A stretch of 64,000 bases of DNA. It comes from Flavobacteriales bacterium (GTDB lineage: Bacteria; Bacteroidota; Bacteroidia; CAIKAF01). The stretch covers positions 1,032,016-1,096,015 of the forward strand of contig JAGYKD010000001.1 of the NCBI GenBank assembly GCA_018401695.1, in the 5' to 3' direction. A program made the position numbers and the translations under genes. The notes beneath the pieces are model-generated. The model ran no database searches and was not told where the DNA came from. It was given only the letters and a program-made list of their open reading frames with translations. Shown one piece after another: positions 16,290-46,521 of the stretch (the stretch's first letter is position 1; the number at the start of each line of letters is the position of its first letter).

Positions 16290-16890
16290 CATAAGAATCT
16301 CATAACCAATCTTTTTACGCAGATGATTCGCTGGCCATGCCCAGGGTAAACCCATACATGATTGGAAAGTGGCATGATTTTTTCTTGTATACTTTCAATG
16401 GGCATCGCAGTGCGGTCCTCTGCACTTCTCTAAGCTCCGACGGCCAAGACCGGGGGGCCTACTTCTCCTGCAGATAGGCCATCGCCTGTGAAAATGGCAT
16501 GGTTTTTGCTGTTTTCTTCTTTAATTAAGAACGAAAACGCTCCGGCTTGTTTTCCGGTGTATGTAAAGCATGAATCTACAGGTCTCCCAAAGCAATTCCT
16601 TGTCCATGTTTGAGTTTAATGTGCTCAAAGCATGCCTTTGCTTGGTCGCCTATGGCAATTTAGGTGGCGGATTTTTGGGCAGGATTCAAGTGTTCCGAAA
16701 CAAAATCGGCATGAATAGGTGTTTCGAGGATATGCCAAATACTTGCCCCAGGAGCTTTCGCCGCCTCCAAATAGAGGTCGGATTCCCGAATGGGGTCAAC
16801 CACAAACGCGCCTATGCCGAAATCCTTACCCGCTCACATCACTTCTTAAGATTACCAAAGCCCTTGTCCATAATCAGGGCATTAGCCCCC
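16290..16890 (-). pseudogene. Decayed MBL-fold metallo-hydrolase (persulfide-dioxygenase-like)
   Basis: The minus strand read in shifting frames gives, in family order: MDKGFGNL near the start; GKDFGIGAFVVDPIRESDLY; LEAAKAPGASIWHILETPIH then ADFVSEHL, where a standard protein has the zinc motif THIHADFVSGH (here the first His is Pro); AIGDQAKACFEHIKL; FTGDGLSAGEVGPP (normally FTGDTLFxGxxGRPD); and VWVYPGHG (normally VYPAHG). At least two frameshifts and several stops separate these blocks, so no full product is possible. The likely parent is an ETHE1/rhodanese-associated glyoxalase II-like enzyme of sulfur oxidation. Identification rests on motif order alone. Confidence 0.7.
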
Positions 16891-16936: not shown

Positions 16937-16944
16937 TACCTTTG
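16937..16944 (+). promoter_or_regulatory. Putative -7 promoter element for the PKS gene
   Basis: TACCTTTG matches TAnnTTTG exactly, 45 bp before the chosen PKS start. The A/T-rich -33 region has no clear TTTG. It implies a 5' leader of about 39 nt. Confidence 0.4.
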
Positions 16945-16989: not shown

Positions 16990-19900
16990 ATGGAGAAACC
17001 CGTACACATGAGCAAAGAACCCATAGCTATTGTAGGTATAGGCTGCCGATTCCCCGGTGGTGCGGCTAGCCCCGAGCAGTTTTGGAACCTTCTTGCCGAA
17101 GGCACCGATTGCATTATAGATGTTCCCAAAGAACGTTGGGATTATCGTCGTTTTTATGACCCTGAAACCGACAGGCCCGGAAAAAGCCACCAATTTCAAG
17201 GAGGGTTTCTAAAACTAAAGGTAGAGGAGTTCGATCCACTCTTTTTTGGCATGTCTCCACGCGAAGCTGCCGTGCTCGATCCACAGCAACGCTTGCTTTT
17301 GCAGACTACTTGGGAGGCCTTTGAGGATGCCGGTTTTACTGAGCAACAGCTCAAAGGCTCAGAAACCGGGGTGTTTGTAGGGGGCTTTTGTTTAGACAAT
17401 AAGCTTCAGCAGCTGAGCGCCCTTAACCGCGATTTAATTGGACCGCATACTGCCACCTCCTCAACCATGGTTATGCTTTCCAACCGCATTTCCTATGCTT
17501 TTGATTTGCGTGGCCCCTCACTTAGCATCGATACTGCCTGCTCATCAGCATTGGTAGCCGCTCACTATGCCTGTACTTCCATCTGGTCCGGCGAAAGCGA
17601 TATGGCCATTGCCGGTGGTGTTAATATTATGTTGCGTCCGGAATACCCCATTGCCATGTCCAAAGGGCAATTCCTGTCCAAACACTCCCGTTGCAAAGCA
17701 TTTGACGAAGATGCCGGCGGCTATGTGCGTGGTGAAGGCGTAGGTGTGGTGGTCTTTAAGCCCCTTTCCAAAGCCATGGAAGATGGCGATTATATCTATG
17801 CCACCGTACATGCCACCGGAGCAAATCAAGACGGCGCTACCAATGGAATTACCGTTCCTAACCCCGACGCACAAGAAGCCCTTATTCGAAAGGTATACGA
17901 TCGGGCCGGCATCAAGCCAAGCGATATACGCTATGTAGAAGCGCATGGTACCGGAACCAAAGCAGGTGACCCTGTAGAGCTATCTGCGCTAAACAACGTC
18001 CTTAAAGAAGGTCGGGGCGCAAACGATAAGGTCTTTGTCGGTTCGGTTAAAACCAATATTGGCCACTTAGAAGCCGGTGCAGGAATTGCCGGAATTATTA
18101 AGTCCGCCATTTCAGTTAGCCGTCGAGAAATTCCTCCGCACTTACATTTTAAACAGGCAAATCCCAATATTGATTTTGATAAGCTGGCCCTAAAAGTGCC
18201 GCTCAAATTAGAGTCGTATCCCGATGGCCCGGCCCTGGTTTCCATCAATTCGTTCGGTTACGGTGGAACCAATGGCCATATGGTTATTGGAGACCCTCCC
18301 AGAGATTACCTCAAAAGGTTCCAGGCCAACGGCCATGTAGAACAACGTGAACACTGGCTGTTTCCGATTTCTGCAAAAAGTGAACAAGCCTTGCGTAATC
18401 TTGCCGTCAAATATGTGGACTTTATCAAAGACAAAAAGCCAGGCTTGGCTGATTTGGCCTACAGCTTGGTTTGGCGTAGAACCCACCACCAACACCGAGC
18501 TACATTTGTAGCCAAAAATCACGACGAACTCATTGAGAAGCTTGAGGCCTTTGCTCGTGGCGAAGTACTTGCCGGAGTAAACCAACAGCAAGCCTTAGAA
18601 AACCCCGAACTGGTATGGGTCTTTACGGGTATGGGCCCGCAGTGGTGGGCAATGGGTCGTGAGTTGTACCAAACCGAACCTATTTTTAAAGCTACCATCG
18701 ACAAGTGCGATGAGTTGTTTGTGGGCTATGCCGGCTGGTCCTTAAAAGAAGAAATGCTTAAGCCTGAGGCCGAATCAAATATGGCCGAAACCCGCGTTGC
18801 TCAGCCCGCCAATTTCTTTATTCAGGCCGGCTTGATTGAAATGTGGAAGGCTTGGGGGCTAACACCCGATGCCGTGGTTGGCCACTCCGTGGGGGAGGTG
18901 CCGGCTGCCTATGTTTCCGGTGCCCTAAGTTTGGAAGATAGCGTACTGGTTTCTTACCATAGGTCGCGCTGTCAGCAAAAAACAGCCGGCCAAGGTACCA
19001 TGCTTGCCATTGGACTTGGCGAAGAAGATGCAGAAGCACTCATTGCCGAGTTGGGCTTAGTCGATACCCTTTCCGTGGCGGCTATCAACTCCTTTAGTGG
19101 AGTAACTATAGCAGGTACACCGGACTCTCTTACCAAAGTAAGCGAGGCCTGCACCGAACGTGGCGTGTTTAATAAAATGCTTACGGTAGAAGTGGCTTAC
19201 CACTCCTATCAAATGGACCCCTTAGAAGAGGAGCTTAAAGAGTGTTTAAAATCCATTAAGCCGAAAAAGGCAAGCATCCCCTTGTATTCTACCGTCACAG
19301 GTACAAGAATGCAGGGCGATGAGTTTGGTGCCGATTATTGGTGGCAAAATGTGCGTCAACCGGTGCGCTTTGCTAAGGCCGCAAAAACGCTGGTAGAAGA
19401 TGGTTACCGAGTGTTCCTCGAAGTTGGCCCACACCCGGTCTTGAGAACCAACATCAATGAGTGCTTGCAAGCCGATGACAAAAAAGGATTCAGCTTGCCT
19501 TCGCTCCGCCGAAACGAACCCGAAATGCCTACTTTACTCAACAGTTTAGGGGCTCTGCATGGCTTAGGTTTCGCTATTCGTTGGGATTCTTTTACCGAAC
19601 ACGGTCACTACCTTAAGCTTCCAACCTATGCTTGGGACATGGATGTTTATTGGCAAGAATCAGAACGGTCCATGGAAGAAAAGCACGGGGTTCCCGGTCA
19701 TATTTTCTTGAACAACAATTTGCGTCAACCTAATCCCTCTTGGGAAGTTGAAATCAACCGCTACTTGATGCCCTGGATGGACGACCATAAAATTGAGTCC
19801 ATGACCGTAATTCCCGGGGCTGCATATGTTGAAGCAGGACTTGCATTGCATGAGAAAACCTTTGAATCGCAGGCCTGTACCTTACAAAACCTGAACTTTA

Positions 19901-22900
19901 ACCAGGTGTTGGTGGTAGACGAAAAGCGGATACAAATGTTCCATACCACCTACCATCCCGACACCAAGGGGTATAAGGTGTATAGCCGTTACCGGGAGGA
20001 CGACTCTCCCTGGACCTTGCACGCCAGCGGGCGCATGTTGAAAGAAACCGTGAGTCGGAAAATCCCCTTGGTTGATTTTGAGGCCATTCGCAAACGTTGT
20101 CCTCAAGAGCTGGTAGCCCAGGAGCTTTATCAGACATTGACCGATAGAGGATTGCATTATGGTCCTTGGTTCCAGGGCATCAAAACCATTTACAAGGGAG
20201 GCACTGAAGTACTTGTGAGGCTGGAAGGTAACGAAAGCCTAATGGTAAATGCAGACAATTATTTGCTGCATCCCACCATGCTTGACTCGGGATTCCAAAG
20301 TATGGTTGCCATTGTGGGTGAACTTAGCTCAAACCCCAATCCATTCGTGCCGGTATCTATCGATCAAGTGATTTTTTATACCAGTCCAGGGGAGTCTTGC
20401 TGGAGTTGGTGCCAAATAACCGAGGTAAAAGACAACCAAATAAAAGGAGACCTTAGCTTGTTTGATGAGCAAGGAGAAGTGTTGGTGGCCTTGGAAGGAA
20501 TTACTTTGCAAGCCATTTCCTCGGGTGGGGAAGAGGCTAGCGCGGCCTCCGACGATTGGTTTTATGAGTACCAGTGGCAAAACACTAAGCTCCAAGAGCA
20601 AAACAAATTCCAGGGCAATTGTTTGGTATTCGGCGACGAGAGCGAAGGTACTTCCCAGGTCGTTGAAGCCTTAGCTGAGAAAGGAATAACCAGTATGTTG
20701 GTGCTTCCCGGCGATAGCTACGTCAACGACGAGGTCTTATTTACCATTCGTCCCAACAAAGAATCCGACTATTTACAGCTATTAGACGATGCCACTCCCT
20801 TAGACATTTCCGGCATTGTTTATCTATGGTCAGAGGCAACCGACAGCAACAGTGAGGGCTTGGAGCCCGACCAAATTGTTGACCGCACCATGCCTGCCGT
20901 ATATTTGGGGAAATCCTTGGCACAGCGTTGGGCAAGCAAAGAAATCCTTTGGTTAACACTCACACGGAACGCACAGCTAGTGGAGGAAAACGACCAAGTA
21001 AAGTCCTTAGAAACTACTCCCTATTGGGGCTTGGCTCGCCTTATTGCCAATGAGCACCCCAACATTAGAACTGCCATGGTGGACACTAGCGAGGGTGAAA
21101 ACTCTTTTGCTGCTGTAGCCAGTGAGCTGTCAGCAGGACTTCCGGCAGACGATGTGGCCTTTAGGAATGGAGACCGTTTTGTTAAGTCTTTGGTTCAGGT
21201 GGCTTATCAGCGCGAGGACATGGCCGGTAAAACCAGAAAAGTATCCACCGAAGAGCCTGTAAGTCTTGAGATTGGTCAAGTTGGTCGCATTGACTCGCTG
21301 CACCACGAAGTTACAGAACGCCGGGCGCCTGAGGCTAAAGAAATTGAAATCCAAACCTTTGCCTCTTGTTTGAACCTTAAAGATGTACTTAAGGTTATCG
21401 GGCAACTTTCTACCAAAGCTACTAGCGGAACCTACTTTGAGAGCACCTTTGGTATGGAGGCTAGCGGTATCGTGACCCGTGTGGGAAGCGATGTAAGCGA
21501 CTTTAAGCCGGGGGATGAAGTGATTTTGGCGGCACAAAGCGGTTGCCTTAAGAGTTATGTAACGGCAGAACCTACCTTTTTTGTGCGGAAACCTAAGCAT
21601 ATTGCTTGGGAAGACTGCCTAATGGTGGTTCCCTACATGACTGTATTGTACGGTTTGCGTGACAGAGCTCAGCTTCAAAAAGGCGAGAAGATACTTATCC
21701 ACAATGCTACAGGTGGAGTTGGTTTAGCGGCTATTCAGTGGGCACAACATGTGGGCGCTGAGATTTATGCCACCGCCGGAAATGAAGAGAAGCGCGAGCA
21801 CCTGCGGTCCCTTGGAATACAGCATGTATTTGATTCTCGCTCTTTGGATTTTGCCAAAGACATTCGCGAGGCCACCGGAGGCTATGGTGTAGATGTGGTT
21901 ATTAATGCCATTGCCGGAGAAGCCCTGTATCAATCCTTTGAATTGTTGGCTTCTTATGGTCGATTTGTAGAGATTGGTAAGCGCGATATTTCGGAAAACA
22001 ATGGCCTGCCTATGGCAGCCTTTAACCGAAACATTACCTTCCACGGAATAGATGTTGACCGCTTAATGATTGAGCGCACGCCTGTGGTGCAAAACATTTT
22101 GCGCGATATTGAGCGATACTATGAGGAAGGGGTTTTTTCGGCGGTAAAGACCTACAGTTTCCCGGCCAACGATGCTATAGAAGCCTTTAACTTCCTTGCT
22201 CAATCCAAGCACATGGGTAAGGTGGTTTTGAATTACAAAGACCAAGAAGTTGAGGTTCCTATTCGTCAGGAAGTAAAAGAAATAGACCCTCATGGCACGT
22301 ATATCATTACCGGCGGAACCGGCGGCTTTGGATTGGAAATTGCCAAATGGCTTTCTTCCAAAGGGGTAGAGCAGCTGGTTTTGGCTTCACGCAGTGGCCT
22401 TAAAAGCGAAGAGGCCCAAAAGGCCGTGGAGGCCATGGAGAGCCGAGGAACCAAAGTGTGGGCAGAACCCCTGGATATTACCGACGCTGCAGCCGTAAAC
22501 AAAGCTATTGGCTTTATAAAAGCGGAGCTGGCTCCGGTAAAGGGAGTGATCCATGGAGCGGTGGTGCTGGACGACGGCTTCTTGGCCGACATGAACCGCA
22601 GCCGTTTTATGACCTCGTTCCAGGCCAAAGTTGGAGGGGCATTGAACTTGCATCGTGCCTTAGCCGATGTAGATTTAGATTTCTTCCTTTCTTTCTCATC
22701 TATTTCTGCCTTAATTGGAAATAATGGTCAAGCGAACTACGTAGCTGCAAATGCCTTCCTGGATGGCTTTGCGCACTACAGAAGAGCTAAAGGGCAAGCC
22801 GCTACAACGGTAAACCTAGGTGTTTTGGCAGAGGTGGGTGTAGCTGCTCGCGATGCCAATGTAACGGCCATCCTAGAGTCCGGAGGAATTATGGGCTTCT

Positions 22901-23436
22901 CGAACCGACAAGCCCTGGAAGGCCTTGAAATTCTTATTGAGCACCACCCTGTACAAGCGGGTATGTTTGATGTAGATTGGCACCGTTGGGCTTCTGTGAA
23001 TGCAGGGGCCGCCAATTCTTCACGATTTGTGAAACTGGTAGAAGCAAGCGGAGCATCCGGAGCCACCAACAGTGTGCTTGTGGAGCTGGGAGCTGTTTTA
23101 GGCGCCATGGCCGATAACGAACGTCAAAGCTACATGGAGCAAGCCATGGCAGAACAATTGGCAGCCGTACTTAAGCTTCCGGTAGAAAAAATAGACAAGT
23201 CCAGAGGCATTAACTTCCTGGGAATTGACTCGTTGATTGCCGTGGAGTTGGGCCGTGCCATAACGGGACGTTTTGGCCTTGATGTGTCTACCATGGAGCT
23301 GTTGAGTGGGCCAAATGTGAGTCAATTGGCATCCATGTTGCTTGAAAAAGCAGCTGCTCAGGGTGTTATTGGTGCCGATATCGATCAGCTGAGCGACGAG
23401 GAACTCGACGCCATGCTTGCCGAGGTGAAGCAGTAA
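16990..23436 (+). CDS. Stand-alone fully reducing type I polyketide synthase (KS-AT-DH-ER-KR-ACP)
   Basis: 2148 aa from the ATG at 16990; the ATG at 17008 (MSKEPIAIVGIG) is equally possible. KS about 10-435 has active Cys184 (DTACSSAL), His319 (EAHGTGT) and His359 (IGHLEAG). AT about 540-830 has Ser633 (GHSVGE) and His738 in VAYHS. DH about 900-1180 has His933 (HKIESMTVIPG) and Asp1099 (LDSGFQ). A KR-structural linker follows. ER about 1425-1745 has the NADPH motif TGGVGLAA. KR about 1765-1945 has TGGTGGFG, the SFSSIS Ser and Tyr1917 (QANYVAANAF). ACP about 2050-2125 has Ser2081 (LGIDSL). All domains look intact. There is no methyltransferase, thioesterase or docking domain and no biosynthetic partner nearby. 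The order equals mycocerosic-acid-synthase-type and animal FAS enzymes, so I infer an iterative synthase of a long saturated acyl chain. Substrate and release step are unknown. Confidence 0.93.
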   Translation: MEKPVHMSKEPIAIVGIGCRFPGGAASPEQFWNLLAEGTDCIIDVPKERWDYRRFYDPETDRPGKSHQFQGGFLKLKVEEFDPLFFGMSPREAAVLDPQQRLLLQTTWEAFEDAGFTEQQLKGSETGVFVGGFCLDNKLQQLSALNRDLIGPHTATSSTMVMLSNRISYAFDLRGPSLSIDTACSSALVAAHYACTSIWSGESDMAIAGGVNIMLRPEYPIAMSKGQFLSKHSRCKAFDEDAGGYVRGEGVGVVVFKPLSKAMEDGDYIYATVHATGANQDGATNGITVPNPDAQEALIRKVYDRAGIKPSDIRYVEAHGTGTKAGDPVELSALNNVLKEGRGANDKVFVGSVKTNIGHLEAGAGIAGIIKSAISVSRREIPPHLHFKQANPNIDFDKLALKVPLKLESYPDGPALVSINSFGYGGTNGHMVIGDPPRDYLKRFQANGHVEQREHWLFPISAKSEQALRNLAVKYVDFIKDKKPGLADLAYSLVWRRTHHQHRATFVAKNHDELIEKLEAFARGEVLAGVNQQQALENPELVWVFTGMGPQWWAMGRELYQTEPIFKATIDKCDELFVGYAGWSLKEEMLKPEAESNMAETRVAQPANFFIQAGLIEMWKAWGLTPDAVVGHSVGEVPAAYVSGALSLEDSVLVSYHRSRCQQKTAGQGTMLAIGLGEEDAEALIAELGLVDTLSVAAINSFSGVTIAGTPDSLTKVSEACTERGVFNKMLTVEVAYHSYQMDPLEEELKECLKSIKPKKASIPLYSTVTGTRMQGDEFGADYWWQNVRQPVRFAKAAKTLVEDGYRVFLEVGPHPVLRTNINECLQADDKKGFSLPSLRRNEPEMPTLLNSLGALHGLGFAIRWDSFTEHGHYLKLPTYAWDMDVYWQESERSMEEKHGVPGHIFLNNNLRQPNPSWEVEINRYLMPWMDDHKIESMTVIPGAAYVEAGLALHEKTFESQACTLQNLNFNQVLVVDEKRIQMFHTTYHPDTKGYKVYSRYREDDSPWTLHASGRMLKETVSRKIPLVDFEAIRKRCPQELVAQELYQTLTDRGLHYGPWFQGIKTIYKGGTEVLVRLEGNESLMVNADNYLLHPTMLDSGFQSMVAIVGELSSNPNPFVPVSIDQVIFYTSPGESCWSWCQITEVKDNQIKGDLSLFDEQGEVLVALEGITLQAISSGGEEASAASDDWFYEYQWQNTKLQEQNKFQGNCLVFGDESEGTSQVVEALAEKGITSMLVLPGDSYVNDEVLFTIRPNKESDYLQLLDDATPLDISGIVYLWSEATDSNSEGLEPDQIVDRTMPAVYLGKSLAQRWASKEILWLTLTRNAQLVEENDQVKSLETTPYWGLARLIANEHPNIRTAMVDTSEGENSFAAVASELSAGLPADDVAFRNGDRFVKSLVQVAYQREDMAGKTRKVSTEEPVSLEIGQVGRIDSLHHEVTERRAPEAKEIEIQTFASCLNLKDVLKVIGQLSTKATSGTYFESTFGMEASGIVTRVGSDVSDFKPGDEVILAAQSGCLKSYVTAEPTFFVRKPKHIAWEDCLMVVPYMTVLYGLRDRAQLQKGEKILIHNATGGVGLAAIQWAQHVGAEIYATAGNEEKREHLRSLGIQHVFDSRSLDFAKDIREATGGYGVDVVINAIAGEALYQSFELLASYGRFVEIGKRDISENNGLPMAAFNRNITFHGIDVDRLMIERTPVVQNILRDIERYYEEGVFSAVKTYSFPANDAIEAFNFLAQSKHMGKVVLNYKDQEVEVPIRQEVKEIDPHGTYIITGGTGGFGLEIAKWLSSKGVEQLVLASRSGLKSEEAQKAVEAMESRGTKVWAEPLDITDAAAVNKAIGFIKAELAPVKGVIHGAVVLDDGFLADMNRSRFMTSFQAKVGGALNLHRALADVDLDFFLSFSSISALIGNNGQANYVAANAFLDGFAHYRRAKGQAATTVNLGVLAEVGVAARDANVTAILESGGIMGFSNRQALEGLEILIEHHPVQAGMFDVDWHRWASVNAGAANSSRFVKLVEASGASGATNSVLVELGAVLGAMADNERQSYMEQAMAEQLAAVLKLPVEKIDKSRGINFLGIDSLIAVELGRAITGRFGLDVSTMELLSGPNVSQLASMLLEKAAAQGVIGADIDQLSDEELDAMLAEVKQ

Positions 23437-23461
23437 GCAGTTGAATACTAGATTTATATCG

Positions 23462-23493
23462 CCGTTCGATTGGGTTCGAACGGTGATTTTTTT
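23462..23493 (+). terminator. Intrinsic terminator after the PKS gene
   Basis: CCGTTCGA and TCGAACGG form a perfect 8-bp stem around a 6-nt loop, followed by TGATTTTTTTAT, 25 bp after the PKS stop. It fits a monocistronic PKS transcript. Confidence 0.85.
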
Positions 23494-23533
23494 ATAAAAT
23501 GTAAGGATTTGTTCAAAAAAAAAGCATTGTTAG

Positions 23534-42135: not shown

Positions 42136-43641
42136 TTACCAACTGATGGTGATTTGGCCGTCTCCGCTGCGCTGTCCACCTGCATTTTGTTGGTTTGTTC
42201 CCCCGTTAAAGGAGCCGCCTCCGCCAGCGCTTGTGGCACTGTTTTGTCCGCAACCTCCACCAGAATAACCACCGCCACCTCCGGCAGCATTTGTGGCACC
42301 TCCGCCTCCACCAAAGCCACCACTTCGGTTGTTGCTTCCACCTTGTCCACCGGCCAATGGACGTATTCCCGGTCCTGTTCCTGTGCCATTGCTGTTCCAT
42401 CCGGCACCACCCCCTGCATCGTTCGAATTAAAGGTACTGCCACCGGTTCCGCCATTTCCCGGACTTCCACCCGGGAAGGCTCCCTGCTGGCCTGAAGTTC
42501 CCACAACCGCGTCCATTAGGTCCATGGTGCCCGAATTGCTTCGCCCACCCCCGCCGCCGGCGGCAATGAGCAGTTGATTGCCGTTTTGTTTCCATACAAA
42601 GCTTCCCCCACCGCCGGCACCGGATCGGAAATAGGCTTGAGCAATACCGTCCTGGCCTTTCCCACCTACCAAAATTTGGAGGACTTCCCCGCCCGAAACC
42701 AGGAAATCGCCCTGCATTATGGCTCCCAGCCCCCCAGCATCTCCATTTTGGTTGGCTCCACCTTGCGCGCCGGCGGCTTGAATCGTAAGGCTACCTACGC
42801 AATTGGGAACCGTAAAACTTTGAGTGCTTCCATTAAAACTAAAGGTTTGACTGCCCGGAGGGCAATTGGTGATGGTCACGCTTTGGGTGTCGATGGAGCT
42901 GCAACCGTTGGCATCGGTAGTTTGAAGAATAACTTGATAGCTGCCGGTATTACTCCATACTACGCTAGGGCCTGCCAGGTTGGAATTGGCCGGGCTGCCG
43001 CTCTGAAACTGCCATTGATAACTTATGGCGGTATTGCTGGTAGCATTAAAATTCACAGGATTTCCAATAGCGCCGGAAAGAGGTCCGAAACCGGCTCCGG
43101 GACCCTGAAAAGCAAACGAAACGGCCAAGGGAGAGGAGCTGCCACATCCGTTTATCGCGGCCACTTGCACTTGCCCCGAAGCCCCGGTTCCGGATACCGA
43201 TACCACCAAGCTGTCGCTGCCTTGACCCGACACTACCTGCAATCCTAAAGGAACCGTCCATTGATAAGATGAGGCTCCGGATATGGGACTGACTCGAAAC
43301 ACCACTTGCGTGTCTCCTGGGCAAGCGTTAGGCACTTGAATAGAGCTTGGAGAGGCAGGAGGCACACTGCAAGCACAAGCCACAGGGGTCCAACCGGTTG
43401 AAAAATATACTTCAACACATTCGGTAGTTAAATTCACAATTTGCAGCCCTATAGCCGGATTGGCGATTGCATTTCGCTGAGCAGTAGTGAGTCTGGGCAT
43501 CAAAAATCCCTTTTGCGAAAAACGCACTTCCAAACCTGCCGATGAGTCGGGCTGACCCGGAGCATCGCTAATCAAAACACCTTGTCCTCGGATGGAGGAT
43601 GCGATAAAAAGAAGAACAAAGAGGAAAGGAAGCAAACGCAT
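42136..43641 (-). CDS. Exported PKD plus glycine-rich (ALK-like) domain protein, paralogue 1
   Basis: 501 aa. Signal peptide MRLLPFLFVLLFIASSIRGQ. N-terminal module of about 75 aa (GVLISDAPGQPDSSAGLEVR, LMPRLTTAQRNAIANP, TGWTPVACACS) shared with the two following genes. Then Ig/PKD-like domains (about 95-265) and a C-terminal module of about 230 aa that starts SFTVPNCVGSLTIQAAGAQG and becomes very Gly-rich (GGGGGRSNSG, GGFGGGGGATNAAGGGGGYS), ending GDGQITISW. This resembles the glycine-rich extracellular module of ALK/LTK receptors. No T9SS tail. Divergent from the other two paralogues. Confidence 0.82.
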   Translation of the reverse strand: MRLLPFLFVLLFIASSIRGQGVLISDAPGQPDSSAGLEVRFSQKGFLMPRLTTAQRNAIANPAIGLQIVNLTTECVEVYFSTGWTPVACACSVPPASPSSIQVPNACPGDTQVVFRVSPISGASSYQWTVPLGLQVVSGQGSDSLVVSVSGTGASGQVQVAAINGCGSSSPLAVSFAFQGPGAGFGPLSGAIGNPVNFNATSNTAISYQWQFQSGSPANSNLAGPSVVWSNTGSYQVILQTTDANGCSSIDTQSVTITNCPPGSQTFSFNGSTQSFTVPNCVGSLTIQAAGAQGGANQNGDAGGLGAIMQGDFLVSGGEVLQILVGGKGQDGIAQAYFRSGAGGGGSFVWKQNGNQLLIAAGGGGGRSNSGTMDLMDAVVGTSGQQGAFPGGSPGNGGTGGSTFNSNDAGGGAGWNSNGTGTGPGIRPLAGGQGGSNNRSGGFGGGGGATNAAGGGGGYSGGGCGQNSATSAGGGGSFNGGTNQQNAGGQRSGDGQITISW

Positions 43642-43657
43642 GGGTAAATATTTTGAG

Positions 43658-43665
43658 CGAAGTTA
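43658..43665 (-). promoter_or_regulatory. Putative -7 promoter element for glycine-rich paralogue 1
   Basis: Minus strand TAACTTCG, the same one-mismatch form of TAnnTTTG as before the polyprenyl synthase gene, about 16 bp upstream of the ATG. Confidence 0.35.
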
Positions 43666-43677
43666 AGGAAGATTTTT

Positions 43678-43819
43678 GGCCGCCAATTCCGGCTGTTCGC
43701 TTTACACGGCTTGCGTTTTAGGGCCCTAGCTGTGCTTGCCGGGTCCCTATGGGCCGCGGCAAGCTTTGCTAGGGCAGCCTAAAACGCTGCACCGGGGTAC
43801 CGCTGCCATCCGGGGCGGA
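43678..43819 (+). repeat. GC-rich hairpin element R6
   Basis: Left end GGCCGCCAATTCCGGCTG is nearly the same as that of R8 (GGCCGGCAATTCCGGCTG); right end CTGCCATCCGGGGCGG resembles GCAGCATCCGGGCCGG of R8. The arms GCGTTTTAGGGCCCTAGC...GCTTGCCG and CGGCAAGC...GCTAGGGCAGCCTAAAACGC pair strongly and are unrelated to the R8 arms. It lies between divergent promoters of paralogous glycine-rich genes. Confidence 0.7.
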
Positions 43820-43895
43820 AAAAACTTTTTTTTAACATGGCATTACTTGCTGTTAGCCAAAGTCAAACTTAACTTGCACAAAATCCAATGCTGCC

Positions 43896-45233
43896 ATGAA
43901 ATTTTTATTAAGTCTGCTTTTAGCACTTATTTTCAACTCCTTGGGTTTAACGCAGGGGGTGCTAATTAGCGATAATCCGGGGCAGCCCAACCCGGATGCC
44001 ATGCTCGAAATTCGAAGCACCAATGGAGGGTTGCTTCTTCCCAGGTTGTCCCAAACTCAGCGCGATGCTATAGTGAATCCAACGGCAGGACTTACTATTT
44101 ATAATCTAAGTTCTTCTTGTGTCGATACGTATTTTCCCGGGGGATGGAGAGCGGTAAGGTGCAATTGCCAAAGTTATCCGAATCCTTCTTTTACCATAAG
44201 TCCATCTCCCGCAAGCATCAATAGTACGGTAAGCTTTGCGGCCACCTCCGGAGCGCAAAACTACCAATGGACTTTTCAAGGGGGAACTCCTGCTACCGGA
44301 TTGGGCCAAAATACAACGGCGAGTTTTGCTCTAGCCGGCACCTATCAGGTGAAGCTGGTAGTGACAGATGCCCAAGGGTGCAGCGATTCTAGTAACCAAT
44401 CGTTGGTTGTAAACGCTTGTCCACCTTCCGGTAGTCAAAGCTTTAGCTTTACGGGTGCTGCCCAAAGCTTTGTTGTGCCGGCTTGCATTACTTCGGTGCA
44501 AATAACCGCTCGTGGCGCTCAAGGCGCAAATGGGATTGGGCAAGATTTTGGTGTCGGAGGACCTGGAGGTACTGCAATTGGTGATTTGTCGGTAACTCCG
44601 GGAGAAACGCTTCATGTGTATGTGGGAGGTCAAATGGGATGGAATGGTGGTGGAAACGGCACCTCCAATGCGGGAAATGGCGGCGGTGCATCGGATGTGC
44701 GTCAAGGGGGACAAAACCTTAACGATAGAGTTATTGTGGCCGGTGGCGGCGGGGGCGGCGGCGGTGACACCTACAACAATGTAAATTCTTATGGTGGAGA
44801 TGGCGGACACGGAGGAGGCTTAGGAACTGCCGGTGGTGCAAATGCAGGATCTTGTTGTGGTGGTACACCGGGGAATGCCGCATGGAGTTTGGGTGGCGGA
44901 AGGCCCGGCCAAAGCCATAACTGTTGGACTACTCCCGGATTTTGCGGAGGTGGTGGAAGCGCCGGAGGAAATAACGGAGGAGGCCAAGCTGCTACCGGAG
45001 CCTCGAACCCTGGAACTGCCGGCTCTTTTGGTCAGGGAGGAAACGGAGGAGACCATAGTTCCTATGGCGATGGCGGTGGCGGCGGCGGCGGCTGGTATGG
45101 TGGTGCCGGAGGAAGCTCAGAAGGTAACGGCGGCGGCGGTGGCGGTGGCTCATCCTATATTGGAGGAGTCAGTAACGGGCAAGTTACCCCCGGAAATCGC
45201 CAAGGAAACGGAGAAATTATTATAAATTGGTAA
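43896..45233 (+). CDS. Exported PKD plus glycine-rich (ALK-like) domain protein, paralogue 2
   Basis: 445 aa. Signal peptide MKFLLSLLLALIFNSLGLTQ. N-terminal module GVLISDNPGQPNPDAMLEIR, LLLPRLSQTQRDAIVNP, GGWRAVRCNC. One PKD domain (YQWTFQGGTPATG ... AGTYQVKLVVTDAQGCSDSS). C-terminal module from SFVVPACITSVQITARGAQG, then Gly-rich (GGGGGGGGDTYNNVN, GGGGGWYGGAGGSSEGNGGG) to GNGEIIINW. One base before paralogue 3. Likely surface-exposed, role unknown; the N-terminal module recalls fibre-type proteins. Confidence 0.84.
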   Translation: MKFLLSLLLALIFNSLGLTQGVLISDNPGQPNPDAMLEIRSTNGGLLLPRLSQTQRDAIVNPTAGLTIYNLSSSCVDTYFPGGWRAVRCNCQSYPNPSFTISPSPASINSTVSFAATSGAQNYQWTFQGGTPATGLGQNTTASFALAGTYQVKLVVTDAQGCSDSSNQSLVVNACPPSGSQSFSFTGAAQSFVVPACITSVQITARGAQGANGIGQDFGVGGPGGTAIGDLSVTPGETLHVYVGGQMGWNGGGNGTSNAGNGGGASDVRQGGQNLNDRVIVAGGGGGGGGDTYNNVNSYGGDGGHGGGLGTAGGANAGSCCGGTPGNAAWSLGGGRPGQSHNCWTTPGFCGGGGSAGGNNGGGQAATGASNPGTAGSFGQGGNGGDHSSYGDGGGGGGGWYGGAGGSSEGNGGGGGGGSSYIGGVSNGQVTPGNRQGNGEIIINW

Positions 45234-45234
45234 T

Positions 45235-46521
45235 ATGCTAACTAACAAGGGTTTAAAAATTTTCCTTTTGCTGTTTTCAAGCCAGTGCTTTGCTCAAGGC
45301 GTATTAATCAGCGATACTCCAGGGCAACCCAGCTCCGATGCCGTATTGGAAGTTCGGAGTACCCAGGGAGGTCTTCTTTTACCACGGCTTACCACGGCTC
45401 AGCGAAACGCCATTGCGAATCCAACCCGCGGATTGCAGATTTACAATACCGACACGGAGTGCCAAGAAACGTATTTTCCCACCGGATGGAGAGCCGTGGC
45501 CTGCAATTGCAATTCTGCACCGGATCCTACCATTACCCCCGGAGTGAGCCAAGGCAACATCAACAGTTCGGTAAATTTTCAATCCGTTCCTGGAGCGGCT
45601 ACCTATGCTTGGACTTTTGCTTCGGGTACACCGGCATCTTCTTCATCTGCCAATCCTTCGGTTACTTGGACCCAAACGGGGACCTATCAAGTGAGCCTGG
45701 TGGTAACCGATGCCCAAGGCTGTAGTGACTCCTCCAGCTTGAGCTTTACGATAATCAATTGTCCCTCGGGAAGTCAAACCTTTAATTATACTGGAAGTAT
45801 CCAAAGTTGGACTGTGCCGGCATGTGTAAGCAGTGTTTCCATAGATTGCCGTGGTGCAGAGGGAGGCGATAATTTTGGTTTGGTTTCTCAAGATTTAGGG
45901 GGTCAAGGGGCACGCATGCAAGGAACCTTTAGTGTACAGGGGGGGCAAGTTTTGCAAATTATTGTTGGCCAAAAAGGCAATGATGCTACTAGCGGAAACA
46001 CGGCCAATGGCGGCGGTGGCGGCGGCGGGGGAAGCTTTGTATGGGTTCAGGGACAAACCGCTCAACCCTTAATTGCGGCAGGAGGAGGTGGCGGCTCATC
46101 CCTAACCAATAACGGAGTTCCACATTATTACGGCAAAGATGGAGTTACTTCCAACACAGGGGGAGGTTCACGCAGCCACGACCAGTTTAATGATGCCCCG
46201 GGCGGTTCAAACGGTCAAGACGGATTCGGTGGAAGTGCAGGTGGTAAGGGCTGGCTTTCTATTGTTCAGAATCCTGGGGGGAAAAGTGCCACCAGCTATG
46301 GCGGTAATGGTGGCTATGGTGGGGGTGGTGGCGGCGGTGCCAATTGTTGCGGAAACTCAGGCCATGCGGCAGGTGCCGGTGGAGGGTACTCCGGTGGAGG
46401 AGCAGGTGGCACTACCTATTATTACGGCGGCGGTGGCGGCGGCTCCTACAACGCGGGTACCAACCAAAGCAATACGGCAGGATTCCAAACAGGACACGGA
46501 CAAGTGATTATTTCTTGGTAG
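45235..46521 (+). CDS. Exported PKD plus glycine-rich (ALK-like) domain protein, paralogue 3
   Basis: 428 aa, separated from paralogue 2 by a single base, so co-translated. Signal peptide ends SQCFAQ. Same three modules: GVLISDTPGQPSSDAVLEVR, LLLPRLTTAQRNAIANP, TGWRAVACNCN; PKD (YAWTFASGTPASS, TQTGTYQVSLVVTDAQGCSD); glycine-rich module from SWTVPACVSSVSIDCRGAEG to GHGQVIISW. The final W and the TVPxCV motif are conserved in all three paralogues. Confidence 0.84.
   Translation: MLTNKGLKIFLLLFSSQCFAQGVLISDTPGQPSSDAVLEVRSTQGGLLLPRLTTAQRNAIANPTRGLQIYNTDTECQETYFPTGWRAVACNCNSAPDPTITPGVSQGNINSSVNFQSVPGAATYAWTFASGTPASSSSANPSVTWTQTGTYQVSLVVTDAQGCSDSSSLSFTIINCPSGSQTFNYTGSIQSWTVPACVSSVSIDCRGAEGGDNFGLVSQDLGGQGARMQGTFSVQGGQVLQIIVGQKGNDATSGNTANGGGGGGGGSFVWVQGQTAQPLIAAGGGGGSSLTNNGVPHYYGKDGVTSNTGGGSRSHDQFNDAPGGSNGQDGFGGSAGGKGWLSIVQNPGGKSATSYGGNGGYGGGGGGGANCCGNSGHAAGAGGGYSGGGAGGTTYYYGGGGGGSYNAGTNQSNTAGFQTGHGQVIISW

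Follow-up and report, generated by a model that had tools for sequence, protein, structure and literature searches.

A dispersed polyketide synthase and α-oxoamine synthase gene set proposed to make a sphingoid-type lipid in a family of Flavobacteriales

The polyketide synthase gene and its distribution

A 64,000-nucleotide stretch of a Flavobacteriales genome (GenBank assembly GCA_018401695.1, contig JAGYKD010000001.1, positions 1,032,016 to 1,096,015; the window) carries a gene for a type I polyketide synthase (PKS) which most likely is neither an orphan nor free-standing, and belongs to a dispersed form of a PKS/α-oxoamine synthase (AOS) sphingolipid system. The reading frame at 16990-23436 on the forward strand is uninterrupted and encodes 2148 amino acids. 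Pfam recovers ketosynthase (KS), acyltransferase (AT), dehydratase (DH), enoylreductase (ER), ketoreductase (KR) and acyl carrier (ACP) domains in that order, each above its cut-off and with its catalytic motifs intact:

16990..23436, forward strand: iterative highly reducing type I PKS of 2148 aa, putative source of the acyl chain in a PKS/AOS lipid pathway
17017..18309, forward strand: ketosynthase domain (Pfam PF00109/PF02801, KS 10-387 aa; TACSS, HGTGT, NIGHL)
18613..19563, forward strand: acyltransferase domain, predicted to be malonyl-specific from a motif survey and PDB ranking (PF00698, 542-858 aa; GHSVG, VAYHS)
19699..20532, forward strand: dehydratase domain (PF21089 and PF14765, 904-1181 aa; DHKIESMTVIPG, HPTMLD)
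21334..22230, forward strand: enoylreductase domain (PF08240/PF00107, 1449-1747 aa; HNATGGVG)
22294..22830, forward strand: ketoreductase domain, B-type LDD (PF08659, 1769-1947 aa; TGGTGGFG/S/Y)
23149..23340, forward strand: acyl carrier domain (PF00550, 2054-2117 aa; GIDSL)
23377..23433, forward strand: C-terminal tail DIDQLSDEELDAMLAEVKQ, putative AOS docking element from motif comparison

An earlier note on this DNA had described a complete highly reducing PKS with all its catalytic residues and without methyltransferase or thioesterase domains, a description that stands, as Pfam finds neither of the latter in the protein. The enzyme is a single-module, fully reducing type I PKS, which with one module would act iteratively.

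Orthologues (66-97% identity) are present in 12 of the 16 genomes of this Bacteroidota family, spanning three genera and including all six genomes of its own genus, with two of the 12 split between contigs; the PKS was not found in the other four family genomes (G006, G007, G010, G011). In an evenly drawn sample of 395 Bacteroidota genomes a PKS at E < 1e-250 occurs in only three, and in two of these the identity is 34-35%. In the PKS tree the branch closest to the family is L018, followed by L049, and the family lies in the part holding all AOS-adjacent PKSs. The PKS of this family is also carried by L011, labelled Candidatus Competibacteraceae (Pseudomonadota), a public label that is probably wrong.

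An unlinked α-oxoamine synthase of the PKS-coupled clade

An AOS condenses an acyl thioester with an amino acid, releasing CO2. Among 77 relatives of the PKS drawn from many phyla, 21 have an AOS gene within two genes of the PKS, these being from Pseudomonadota, Nitrospirota, Planctomycetota, Actinomycetota, Cyanobacteriota and Bacteroidota. In L049 (Chitinophagales, PKS 49% identical) the AOS beside the PKS is followed by a P450-like protein and oxidoreductases. The genome under study has its AOS at C1:282408-283787, 765 kb from the PKS. Its identity to the PKS-adjacent AOSs of other phyla is 54-57%; with the remaining AOSs of its class it does not exceed 40%. AOSs of 458-461 aa with an N-terminal segment (MADQKPLSTEEKRELLKKMLREKA in this genome) are encoded in 11 of the PKS-positive family genomes, and in the twelfth, G008, the AOS is a fragment ending at a contig end. 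The AOSs of the four PKS-negative family genomes and of 44 other genomes of the class match only from about residue 65, at no more than 40% identity, and in the other 394 sampled Bacteroidota genomes no AOS of this kind turns up at E < 1e-85.

In the AOS tree, the family AOSs and the unlinked AOS of the genome of L018 form a clade (99/97) nested in a larger clade (31 rows, 99/98) that consists solely of AOSs from genomes with such a PKS, with canonical serine palmitoyltransferases (SPTs; L157-L160, PDB 3a2b), Kbl and a fourth type falling outside it. The genome under study has a dedicated AOS of the PKS-coupled clade, as placed by a tree that does not include SgaB, the AOS of the Pseudomonas system considered below. 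Three long branches (L049, L057, L075) are unsure in their own places, and little weight is given to the AOS neighbours of the actinobacterial PKSs L057, L059 and L069, which either sit on long branches or do not figure in the tree. Against the canonical Bacteroidota SPT model (NF047600) the AOS scores 309 bits, under the cut-off of 640 that is exceeded by the controls L157 (679) and L160 (720), and no canonical Bacteroidota SPT was seen in the genome. Its best PDB matches are SPTs, with a cysteate-C-fatty acyltransferase also among the matches.

The surroundings of the related PKSs vary. In Nitrosomonas, Nitrospira and Methylobacter (L032, L038, L041, L043, L060, L063, L064, L068, L071, L084) the PKS-AOS pair is followed by an MMPL-like transporter, a LolA-like protein, another conserved gene and often a PPTase-like gene, names given from the look of the sequence only; the arrangement is a candidate lipid export route. 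In L028 and L029 a fusion of about 800 aa, joining an unidentified N-terminal domain to an AOS domain, lies upstream of the PKS and a second AOS downstream. The Verrucomicrobiota PKSs (L026, L040, L045, L046, L050, L072) have no AOS beside them and are followed by a conserved 463-470-aa protein, mostly then by two-component-type genes.

Co-inheritance of four scattered genes

The PKS, the AOS, an extended short-chain dehydrogenase/reductase (SDR) and a type II thioesterase (TEII) occur together in 12/12 PKS-positive and 0/4 PKS-negative family genomes, and all four are present in the genome of L018, the source of the next-closest PKS. The SDR (C1:274926-275915), which can be classed as an extended SDR only (PF01370; HpnA model 228 against a cut-off of 368), is 70-100% identical across the 12 genomes, at most 32% in the PKS-negative genomes and 60% in that of L018. 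For the TEII (C1:991468-992163; assigned with Pfam support) the corresponding values are 44-100% in the 12 and 40% in the genome of L018, with no match in the four PKS-negative family genomes. In all 12 the TEII adjoins an Sfp-type phosphopantetheinyl transferase (PPTase; G000:C1 about 992.16-992.80 kb); no other PPTase was found in the genome under study. The AOS and SDR genes stand in tandem with gaps of 18-73 bp, as one operon, in six genomes of two sister genera; they are 6.5 kb apart in the genome under study, the pathway genes of which lie at three separate chromosome places, and on different contigs in G001 and G003-G005.

In a FabF/FabD/Kbl tree genus g3, which is PKS-negative, groups as sister to genus g1, which has the PKS (99/99), and a single clade of all PKS-positive genomes is rejected (p-AU 0.0045). 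As these genomes do not form one clade, there were at least two joint gains or losses of the scattered genes. The simple count of 12/12 against 0/4 gives p = 0.0005, a value that is only indicative given the relatedness of the genomes. The PKS had been called an orphan with no partner gene: no partner lies beside it, but the unlinked AOS, SDR and TEII-PPTase pair share its pattern of presence and absence, and the label no longer fits.

Candidate docking motifs

The PKS ends some 15-30 residues past the ACP in ...DIDQLSDEELDAMLAEVKQ. This tail pattern (LSxEELDALL-like) is found in all 13 PKSs whose AOS is unlinked, in 8 of the 21 that have an AOS beside them and in 2 of the 44 others, counts that include close relatives such that the Fisher value is not a fair probability. 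The AOSs beside PKSs in Nitrosomonas, Nitrospira and Methylobacter start with a similar LS-EEKR-LLK-LL segment. The PKS C-terminal tail and the AOS N-terminal segment look like docking elements, by which the two proteins may bind each other.

Proposed pathway and comparison with known systems

We consider it likely that the PKS is the iterative synthase of a genome-dispersed, SgaAB-like PKS/AOS lipid pathway. The Sfp-type PPTase would prime the ACP of the PKS, which would elongate an acyl starter with malonyl units and fully reduce each β-carbon to give a long saturated acyl-ACP, with the neighbouring TEII removing stalled chains. As the PKS has no thioesterase domain, the unlinked pyridoxal phosphate (PLP)-dependent AOS would dock through its N-terminal LSTEEKRELLKKMLREKA segment to the PKS tail, take the acyl-ACP as substrate and condense the chain with an amino acid, probably serine, with decarboxylation to a 3-keto long-chain base. 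The extended SDR would then reduce the ketone, and the end product would be a sphingoid-type envelope lipid. CerR/KDSR keto-reductases act on a 3-keto long-chain base or on an oxidised ceramide, a role that the SDR may share. The suggestion that the PKS makes an unusual long-chain lipid rather than a secreted polyketide gains support, and a long-chain lipid is probably its product.

The system most like this one is PfSgaAB of Pseudomonas fluorescens MYb115, which makes C24, C26 and C28 sphinganines from serine, as demonstrated by deletion, labelling and enzyme assay, with SgaB having serine palmitoyltransferase activity (PMC12134224). Both systems have a single-module iterative type I PKS and a PLP-dependent AOS, with a keto-reductase proposed as the third step and the same predicted product class. 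They differ in that the PfSgaAB genes are adjacent whereas those described here lie at three chromosome places, that the reductase here is an extended SDR (PF01370) and not of the KDSR type, and that the TEII and PPTase are co-inherited, the set being kept in all genomes of the genus that were searched and across three genera within one Bacteroidota family. The earlier note had raised the case of close homologues already linked to a known lipid; the PKS-AOS architecture does have a product class in Pseudomonas, the sphinganines (PMC12134224), but not by way of a close homologue.

In the fungal sphinganine-analogue clusters (fumonisin, AAL toxin, sphingofungin; PMC7711896, PMC10936153) an AOS likewise releases a reducing-PKS chain by amino-acid condensation, whereas the PKS described here is bacterial, has no methyltransferase domain and is not clustered. 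Bacterial sphingolipid synthesis requires a keto-reductase (PMC11087976), and sphingolipid genes in Bacteroidota need not adjoin and can be dispersed (PMC11334938). With the canonical bacterial pathway (Spt, bCerS, CerR; PMC11087976) the present gene set has in common the AOS chemistry, an SDR-kind keto-reductase and dispersal in Bacteroidota (PMC11334938), but its acyl chain is expected from the PKS rather than from fatty-acyl-CoA/ACP, and its AOS falls under the SPT model (309 vs 640 bits).

Several observations weigh against a PKS/AOS pathway of this type. The gene adjacency of SgaAB-type pairs is missing in this genome, where 765 kb separate the two genes, and the likeness to SgaAB is one of architecture, not of directly compared SgaA and SgaB sequences. 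The AOS of L049, the nearest PKS with an adjacent AOS, falls outside the clade on a long branch of unsure place, and no AOS of this clade was found in the genomes of the relatives L017, L019 and L027. Not all AOS-adjacent PKSs carry the tail motif (8/21), and the co-occurrence has as its base 16 family genomes and about two independent events. Finally, the chemistry of the pathway in this family, including the use of serine, is predicted from its genes.

Alternative explanations

Whether the product is a true serine-derived sphingoid lipid is evenly poised. The alternative to fare best keeps the PKS feeding the AOS but has the AOS take an amino acid other than serine, such as glycine, alanine or cysteate, so that the lipids would be of the 1-deoxy-sphingoid, sulfonolipid or amino-ketone type instead of true sphinganines. 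This is possible, though the less favoured outcome: the AOS family has members of each specificity, the AOS here fails the SPT models and a cysteate-C-fatty acyltransferase is among its PDB matches, whereas its best matches are SPTs and the characterised PKS-coupled SgaB almost exclusively takes L-serine over alanine and glycine.

A stand-alone PKS whose free fatty acid or hydrocarbon is released by the TEII, with the AOS and SDR co-occurring through shared ancestry only, is unlikely. In its favour the TEII co-occurs too and the genes are unlinked, but the PKS-positive genomes are not a clade and yet all four genes change jointly, the AOS clade otherwise occurs with PKSs, and of the 395 sampled Bacteroidota the other 394 lack this AOS.

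A similarly low likelihood attaches to a mycocerosic acid synthase (MAS)-type enzyme, the possibly methyl-branched fatty acid of which would be moved straight onto a lipid by an acyltransferase, with the AOS belonging to another pathway. MAS is the best full-length PDB match of the PKS and has the same domain order, bearing out the MAS-type order previously noticed, and like MAS/Pks2 of mycobacteria the enzyme has no thioesterase domain. The top NCBIfam model is Pks2 (NF041183), but the score of 1324 bits is well under the curated cut-off of 2400, the PKS lies in another clade, and its AT has VAYHS with GHSVG rather than the methylmalonyl-type ASH, a motif seen in L070. No PapA/FadD-like partner or PapA-type acyltransferase lies beside the PKS, and its AOS has a history and an N-terminal segment in common with PKS-coupled AOSs.

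A close relationship to the ancestor of animal fatty acid synthase (FAS), hinted at by VAYHS, by the similar domain set and by animal FAS among the whole-protein PDB matches, is very improbable, as xA/PYHS is common across bacterial single-module PKSs (VPYHS in 31 and VAYHS in 29 of 78 aligned sequences), the AT best matches 6-deoxyerythronolide B synthase (DEBS), MAS and other bacterial PKSs, and the 52 PDB sequences matching it at E < 1e-30 include no animal FAS, so that the suggested closeness of the AT to animal FAS is not borne out.

Transcription signals and gene neighbourhood

Sites resembling a promoter and a terminator bracket the PKS gene, upholding the proposal of an independent transcript:

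16937..16944, forward strand: TACCTTTG, Bacteroidota-type -7 promoter element (TAnnTTTG), 53 nt before the ATG, of predicted function
23458..23497, forward strand: strong intrinsic-terminator-like hairpin (hairpin 23458-23487), a 12-bp stem followed by TTTTTTATAA

TAnnTTTG lies within 140 nt upstream of the PKS in 7/10 orthologues. Upstream of the gene is a resistance-nodulation-division (RND) efflux operon (TetR, OEP, HlyD, AcrB), rejected as a partner since it adjoins the PKS only in the closest sibling, L012, and downstream is a gene for a secreted protein with a type IX secretion system sorting tail. No conserved neighbour gene was found beside the PKS across the whole family, and an Rfam search gave no match.

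Beside the PKS, at 16301-16809 on the reverse strand, lies a metallo-β-lactamase (MBL)-fold plus rhodanese gene decayed by stop codons and a large deletion; the 97% sibling (L012/G002) has it intact at the same site, and in L009 and L014-L016 it stands divergent to the PKS. As a releasing hydrolase the divergent MBL-rhodanese (beside the PKS in L009, L012, L014-L016) was rejected, as family genomes have homologues whether or not they carry the PKS, and the copy here is a decayed remnant. The sigma-54-like site TGGCATGGTTTTTGCT at 16495, unique in the genome, was likewise set aside: its reverse complement corresponds to a coding stretch (SKNYA/SKNHA) that is conserved in the MBL gene of relatives, and it is hence probably a relic. 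In three species of the genus (L008 9957, L013 9957, L022 9954) copies of the sigma-54-like site, TGGCATGATTTTTGCT, stand some 45 nt ahead of the start codon of the PKS. Elsewhere in the window, the stretch 42136-46521 holds three paralogous genes side by side, for secreted proteins of 428-501 aa that contain glycine-rich stretches.

Significance

PKS-made bacterial sphingolipids were reported in 2025 from one Pseudomonas with adjacent genes (PMC12134224), and their spread was estimated through co-located PKS-AOS pairs. A PKS-AOS pair split far apart, yet kept or lost jointly, would be missed by such co-location surveys. It is about as probable as not that in this family a conserved envelope sphingolipid has its acyl chain from the PKS, and not from ordinary fatty-acid synthesis by way of a canonical SPT, through a pathway that is spread over at least three loci and so hidden from cluster-based genome mining. 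What had been an "orphan" PKS becomes a testable pathway with named partner genes, and a diagnostic AOS clade with candidate docking motifs is gained. The finding suggests that, in a phylum already noted for sphingolipids, some bacteria may rely on a polyketide synthase for standing lipids of their membranes.

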